DNA from: Robertmurraya dakarensis
GTDB taxonomy: Bacteria; Bacillota; Bacilli; Bacillales; Cytobacillaceae
Direction of reading: 5' to 3'
Length of the DNA stretch: 52,702 nucleotides
Assembly: GCF_900156875.1 (NCBI RefSeq)
Contig: NZ_LT707403.1
Span: 1-52,702 of the forward strand
A program made the translations under genes and the position numbers. The notes beneath the pieces were generated by a model. The model made no database searches, was not told the DNA's origin, and saw only the letters and a program-made list of their open reading frames with translations. Positions 52,233 to 52,458 of this stretch are shown here, in pieces (position 1 is the first letter of the stretch; every line of letters begins with the position of its first letter).

Positions 52233-52382
52233 GCCGGCCTAGCTCAATTGGTAGAGCACGACCGAATAAGCATCCTGCTTAAGCTTCAGCATACTGATCG
52301 AGCTGCTGCTTGAATAATCATTCTGAGATCAGGATGACGTTTTGCAACGTTTAATCCCGCATGTTAATTATAACTATATTAA
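52233..52382 (+). pseudogene. Broken 5' copy of tRNA-Thr plus a 124-bp structured insert
   Basis: Bases 52233-52258 are identical to the first 26 nt of the intact tRNA-Thr at 52383-52408 (acceptor 5' strand, D-arm), exactly 150 bp upstream. The copy then runs into 124 bp unrelated to a tRNA, without anticodon arm or 3' end. The insert has several stems: TAAGCA-TCC-TGCTTA (52267-52281), CATCCTG with CAGGATG (52271-52277 and about 52331-52337), CTGATC with GATCAG, and ACGTT-TTGC-AACGT. No open reading frame is evident. Confidence 0.75.
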
Positions 52383-52458
52383 GCCGGCCTAGCTCAATTG
52401 GTAGAGCAACTGACTTGTAATCAGTAGGTTGGGGGTTCAAGTCCTCTGGCCGGCACCA
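52383..52458 (+). tRNA. tRNA-Thr (anticodon TGT)
   Basis: 76 nt, acceptor stem GCCGGCC / GGCCGGC, encoded CCA. Anticodon stem ACTGA / TCAGT with loop CTTGTAA; anticodon TGT at 52416-52418. Its 5' 26 nt are duplicated 150 bp upstream. Confidence 0.97.

Follow-up and report, generated by a model that had tools for sequence, protein, structure and literature searches.

Introduction

When an integrative element inserts at a tRNA gene, it leaves behind a complete tRNA together with a partial copy of it; such elements carry an integrase, and it is mostly the 3' part of the gene that they use. REP sequences and the palindromes derived from IS200/IS605 are small hairpin repeats that lie beside a short fixed sequence and are mobilised by Y1 transposases. 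T-boxes are RNA leaders that stand ahead of protein genes and read whole tRNAs, and the tRNA-derived SINEs of eukaryotes join a tRNA-derived head to an unrelated body. tRNA genes are among the best-studied genes of bacteria, yet one in three of the Bacillales genomes sampled carries ahead of them a family of units that has no match in Rfam. One such unit, located in a tRNA operon of Robertmurraya dakarensis, is described here together with its relatives; the window is the whole stretch of 52,702 nucleotides that was analysed (contig NZ_LT707403.1). Our tentative reading, and the most probable of those considered, is that the unit is a conserved, repeated RNA element that acts in cis and that certain Bacillales pre-tRNAs carry in their 5' leader.

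The tRNA-Thr locus of R. dakarensis

All features of the locus lie on the forward strand, in one operon with tRNA-Val(TAC) (52127-52202, called by ARAGORN), which is the adjoining gene upstream. GCCGGCCTAGCTCAATTGGTAGAGCA is read directly at 52233-52258 and again at 52383-52408, with 150 nt from start to start and a gap of 124 nt, and a repeat search of the window recovers the same 26-nt pair (family D2). The second copy (T') comprises nucleotides 1-26 of an intact tRNA-Thr(TGT) at 52383-52458, as called by ARAGORN; the upstream copy (T), a half-tRNA that ends in GAGCA, gives no tRNA call. The duplication around an insert, first noticed in a sequence-only reading of the window, is therefore genuine by direct reading, ARAGORN and repeat search alike. 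That reading had taken the 124-bp insert for one structured block, which holds for the first part of it: a structured and conserved core of ~78 nt, belonging to family 1, occupies 52259-52336 (located by nhmmer with a 17-sequence seed and by covariance model R1), and the remainder (52337-52382) is a tail that begins with the next tRNA nucleotides (AC) and is AT-rich from there up to the tRNA. R1, which was built from 34 units (alignment A1), matches the window at 52229-52342 with 123.4 bits. The two strands of helix P1 in the core, CAT-A-CTGATC at 52290-52299 and GATCAG-G-ATG at 52327-52336, were placed by covariation analysis.

The contig of the window stops 244 bases past tRNA-Thr, within a tRNA, a circumstance that would suit an assembly artefact or the local scar of an excised integrated element. 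Against this, the unit recurs twice more in this genome (at C10:603k and C10:428k) and in many independent assemblies, two of them titled complete genomes (NZ_CP091110.1 and NZ_CP133268.1). Because of this recurrence a chance repeat is excluded and misassembly of the duplication is very unlikely; artefact and local scar taken together are scarcely credible. The related suggestion that an integrated element left a relic here, or that recombination between tRNA clusters left a scar, was not sustained either, as the unit proves to be a recurring and conserved family, present at several tRNA types and in 59 of 136 sampled genera of the order.

Eight tRNA-Thr(TGT) loci were found in the genome, and the unit is present at three of them (C5, C10:603k and C10:428k) and absent from five, so that it is not an ordinary spacer common to all homologous loci. 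At C10:78k, tRNA-Val and tRNA-Thr are separated by a spacer of similar sequence and of the same 30 nt as in the window, and tRNA-Thr follows it immediately, which makes this an empty paralogous site. The unit thus behaves as had been proposed, namely as an insertion that spares the tRNA because it comes with its own copy of the tRNA 5' end. For tRNA-fMet, three clusters have a 19-nt spacer at the place where two paralogous clusters have a unit. Nine family-1 units are detected in the genome by R1 (three at tRNA-Thr, four at tRNA-fMet, one at tRNA-Asn and one at tRNA-Arg(TCT)), and a second model, R2, detects five units of a second core family (two at tRNA-Phe, two at tRNA-Lys and one at tRNA-Asn). 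All 14 elements directly precede a tRNA, and the majority of the tRNA copies in the genome are without a unit. At C11:2644k (L137) a family-2 core starts right behind the CCA of a complete tRNA-Thr and precedes tRNA-Lys, with no copy of the tRNA-Lys 5' end.

At another place in the same genome (C10:607000-607120, L011:1-120) a 16S rRNA-like fragment, a single N and a 5S-like end were seen by eye, followed by a tRNA cluster. The junction suggests that scaffolds were joined within an rRNA operon that had collapsed.

Architecture of the unit

The layout is common to both core families and consists, in order, of the 5' part of the cognate tRNA ending in AGCA, a structured core (~78 nt in family 1), usually the next nucleotides of the tRNA, an AT-rich tail and the whole tRNA. 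The half-tRNA corresponds to the 5' part of the tRNA that directly follows on the same strand. It usually extends to nucleotide 25-27, to 17-18 in some tRNA-Arg and to 14-15 in tRNA-fMet, and its end is usually AGCA (AGCC in one element). The duplication had been described as starting precisely at nucleotide 1 of the tRNA; this is correct for the window and does not extend to the family, in which the repeat usually continues ~10 nt further up (85 elements). The flanks above the half-tRNA and above the tRNA are identical at position -1 in 71 of the 85 elements and at -11 in 42, and from -12 to -20 the identity falls within 31 to 45 elements.

Behind the core, at least two of the next tRNA nucleotides are present in 89 of 97 elements and at least four in 32 of 97, compared with 5% and 0% in a control against tRNAs of another type; this count leaves out 12 of 109 rows, five in which no junction was located and seven whose half-tRNA was apparently poor. 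The longest such run measures 11 nt and stands before a tRNA-Asn (L090). From core end to tRNA the distance ranges from 27 to 104 nt (n=93), with a median of 48 nt and quartiles of 44 and 51. Among the 103 loci with a duplicated tRNA 5' end, 16 of which lack a strong family-1 match and were read individually, no half-tRNA without a core was found.

Two details of the flanking sequence were noted by eye. In tails before tRNA-Phe, TTTAGG or a near form of it stands ~15 nt before the tRNA in both core families, sometimes behind a small hairpin, and a similar TAGG occurs in some tRNA-fMet and tRNA-Asn tails. At the solitary tRNA-Arg gene of L043 a TATAAT-like box immediately precedes the half-tRNA, and transcription could begin there at about nucleotide 1 of the half-tRNA copy.

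The main helix of family 1 closes the 3' end of the core (CGT-A-CCGATC/GATCGG-G-ACG). In 34 sequences 99.3% of its cells are paired and compensatory changes are present at 7 of 9 pairs; 51 cells are changed on both sides of the helix, compared with 13.7 in shuffles, none of 500 of which reached as high a value. The pair-type count of this helix is ordinary (299 of 500 shuffles). Family 2 (14 sequences) has two helices, and none of 500 shuffles equalled it on any of five covariation measures. Helices are thus kept by compensatory changes in both families, and the earlier proposal that the insert is a structured RNA candidate is borne out by the covarying core helix.

Occurrence at tRNA genes and in the order

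The tRNAs that carry units were surveyed at 709 distinct tRNA loci for which the sequence available upstream was long enough, a set that is biased in that the loci were fetched because of their elements. A copy of the tRNA's own first 13 nt is found upstream at 103 of them, all within nine isoacceptor classes, Thr(TGT), Thr(CGT), Lys, Asn, Phe, Met and Arg(TCT, CCT and CCG) (103 of 226 loci, and none of 483 in the other classes). Eight further loci have a family-1 match upstream without the 13-nt copy, one of them before tRNA-Leu(TAA). In most alleles the used tRNAs have TRGAGCA followed by a base other than C, a rule derived from the same loci that it describes and one that some Met(CAT) alleles do not fit; among the unused types, Pro and Thr(GGT) have GGTAGAGCA followed by C, and Val has GGGAGAGCA.

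An exact degenerate pattern is found in 49 stretches from named genomes, in Bacillus, Neobacillus, Cytobacillus, Metabacillus, Mesobacillus, Peribacillus, Rossellomorea, Ectobacillus, Pseudoneobacillus and Calidifontibacillus. Pooled with the other fetched loci, the family-1 matches amount to 121 distinct sequences from members of the order (nhmmer, 17-sequence seed), a count that includes at least one duplicate (L019, which shows another match again in clipped form). A tRNA on the same strand comes next within the available stretch in 115 of the 121; five of the other six apparently reach the end of the stretch, the end of a contig or an N-run. The sixth (L057) consists of a half-tRNA-Thr and a decayed core with no tRNA following, and is apparently a relic.

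With strict filters R1 has matches in 131 of the 397 genomes that represent the order, spread over 59 of 136 genera, and gives none in the other 266. A class sample and a phylum sample, both of which include members of the order, gave 9 matches in 299 genomes and 2 in 299, and all of these matches lie within the order. R2 has matches in 25 of 101 relatives, many of them low-scoring.

It could be argued that the unit is a neutral by-product, in which a hairpin-rich insertion and repeat slippage have left sequence that drifts with neither function nor mobility. The tails, which have strongly diverged while the tRNAs have not, and the relic at L057 are what such drift would produce. On the other side stand the compensatory changes in two core families, the spread over more than a third of the sampled genera and the tight spacing between core and tRNA, and in view of these a neutral origin seems quite improbable.

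Arrays, descent and mobility

Tandem units are common, with periods near 150 nt. The largest array has six cores ahead of tRNA-Thr (L114), and three identical units stand ahead of tRNA-Phe at L116. At L049 a half-tRNA-Arg contains two cores at two AGCW sites, as judged by eye, and L053 is similar and less clear. Perfect half-tRNAs are seen in 61 of 76 single units, in 14 of 14 array units that adjoin the tRNA and in 8 of 14 outer array units. By a stricter comparison the half-tRNA is identical to its tRNA in 74 of 85 elements, a set that excludes four elements whose half-tRNA is decayed or does not align. Mismatches fall on 7 of 595 positions in the acceptor and on 3 of 480 in the D-loop region, so the acceptor is no better kept. 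The half-tRNA also tracks the alleles of its own tRNA, as seen for six tRNA-Thr acceptor alleles with one mismatching exception.

A tree of the cores (105 cores, 83 columns, many forks unresolved) requires 29 changes of tRNA type, compared with 64.3 in shuffles (none of 200 as low); genus requires 55 changes, a figure that has no shuffle control. For different tRNA types the mean similarity of cores is 0.712 within a genome (105 pairs) and 0.724 between genomes (4544 pairs), the highest value for such a pair being 0.95 and the Gln label of L088 being an artefact of an N-run. For the same tRNA type it is 0.758 between genomes and 0.906 in one genome, arrays included. As far as can be judged from these sequences, cores follow tRNA type more than genome, and each type appears to have lineages of its own. 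Since cores of different types are no more alike within a genome than between genomes, there is no sign of recent jumping between tRNA types.

These observations bear on a second reading, which we consider quite possible: the unit may be a selfish mini-element whose insertion sites are of the AGCA type, in the 5' halves of tRNAs, and which spares its host by leaving a whole tRNA, its hairpins serving as recognition sites. Some enzyme supplied in trans would move it, or homologous exchange between tRNA clusters would account for its spread. A selfish element is favoured by the position of the junction, which is set by sequence and not by tRNA anatomy (hence the three ranges of half-tRNA length), by empty and filled paralogous sites within one genome, by patchy occurrence in the order, by two core families at the same tRNA types, by the nesting of two cores in one half-tRNA and by arrays of up to six units. 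What speaks against it is that the cores cluster by type with no jumping between types visible within genomes, and that the unit, at ~150 nt, has no coding capacity. No integrase of the kind carried by tRNA-site integrative elements is encoded in it, and no longer form occurs among the 121 matches. The insert has no match in phages or plasmids, plasmid matches being confined to the tRNA part, and the exact pattern is absent from IMG/VR. Y1_Tnp, the IS200-type transposase, does not go with presence of the element either (it is found in 27 of 30 genomes that have the element and in 23 of 30 that lack it), and three element-bearing genomes (G141, G186 and G191) are without any Y1_Tnp match.

Discussion

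What, then, does the unit do? We favour a cis-acting element of the pre-tRNA leader over a selfish element. Its place inside tRNA operons suggests that the unit is transcribed; it would be transcribed together with the tRNA, fold within the leader and act on that tRNA. Such action would most likely proceed through altered folding or maturation of the precursor, which is proposed because the half-tRNA offers the 3' half of the tRNA a second, identical 5' half. Slippage at the direct repeats, or unequal exchange, may keep renewing the two half-tRNA copies and so maintain their identity, and the same processes could account for the growth of arrays. Direct repeats, here of 26 nt, should also lose the unit between them by slippage, and its persistence despite such repeats suggests that the unit is under selection. 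The comparative data favour a leader RNA in that the helix covaries, descent is specific to tRNA type, the spacing is tight, units adjoining the tRNA are the best preserved, and the unit survives despite the repeats. On the other hand, occurrence is patchy, both among the genomes of the order and among the tRNA copies of R. dakarensis, most of which have no unit. Moreover, the half-tRNA is not indispensable, as the core at C11:2644k has none and in the four excluded elements it is decayed or does not align.

A more specific form of the leader reading, which we hold to be rather unlikely, is a tRNA-specific RNA switch. The leader, with its second copy of the tRNA 5' half interrupted by a folded domain, would decide, during transcription or processing, whether the 3' half of the tRNA pairs with its true or with the decoy 5' half, and single isoacceptors in shared operons would be tuned in this way.

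Folding calculations gave no positive support for pairing with the decoy half. In partition-function calculations the upstream half lies on the 3' strand of the tRNA with 73 of 76 real cores and with 441 of 456 shuffled cores; the shuffled cores match the real ones, and the decoy signal therefore stems from the energy model. The numbers were the same with three other parameter sets; this is no independent check, since the multiloop parameters did not change when Turner 1999 was loaded. Core-to-D-arm complementarity was likewise not accepted, with a mean z of -0.57 against shuffles, 26 of 76 below -1 and no preference for the own type; the best value was that for tRNA-Thr (-1.17, 15).

If the unit is regulatory, it would represent a way to control one isoacceptor within a shared operon; if it is selfish, it would be a mini-element specialised on tRNA genes, with an unknown mover. 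Under either reading annotation should separate it from tRNA pseudogenes, and deletion mutants are easily sought because of the direct repeats.

Comparison with described systems

None of the 4227 models of Rfam matches over the element of the window at E up to 1, and at the gathering score no model matches over the elements of 15 further loci, where only tRNA, rRNA and Bacillaceae-1 are reported. Nothing on a half-tRNA and core before a tRNA was found in the portion of the open-access literature that was accessible. The family is apparently undescribed, and an earlier description is possible.

Bacillaceae-1 RNA (RF01690) resembles the unit in being a structured RNA candidate of the Bacillaceae that lies between tRNA genes (tRNA-Glu and tRNA-Val) and is present in this genome too; it differs in sequence and structure, it has no half-tRNA and its model does not match the elements. 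Copies of it in R. dakarensis lie at L009:369-434, L010:261-321 and L013:191-256, between tRNA-Glu and tRNA-Val, and two of these three loci also carry a half-tRNA unit.

An intron in a tRNA gene was rejected as an explanation, as the core is usually followed by 2-11 nt of the tRNA and then by an unrelated tail and a whole tRNA, with no flanking exons. RtcB, the tRNA ligase, shows no association of note (4 of 30 element-bearing and 1 of 30 element-free genomes).

With the integrative elements that use tRNA sites, the unit shares a target tRNA gene that is left whole and accompanied by a partial copy; unlike them, it copies the 5' part, measures ~150 nt and carries no gene. Similar to the repeats mobilised by Y1 transposases (REP, IS200/IS605), it is short, bears hairpins and lies beside a short fixed sequence, but it occurs only at tRNA genes, includes a copy of the cognate 5' part and has no Y1_Tnp association. 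A T-box, too, is an RNA leader of Bacillota built around one particular tRNA, whereas the unit is found in front of the tRNA gene itself, contains a copy of that gene's 5' part and has no T-box match in Rfam. The tRNA-derived head and unrelated body recall the SINEs, from which the unit differs in being bacterial, in standing always beside the cognate tRNA gene and in having no visible dispersal. As one more family of structured RNAs the unit would be less novel; what appears to be new is its architecture, with a cognate half-tRNA that a structured core interrupts in front of the whole tRNA.
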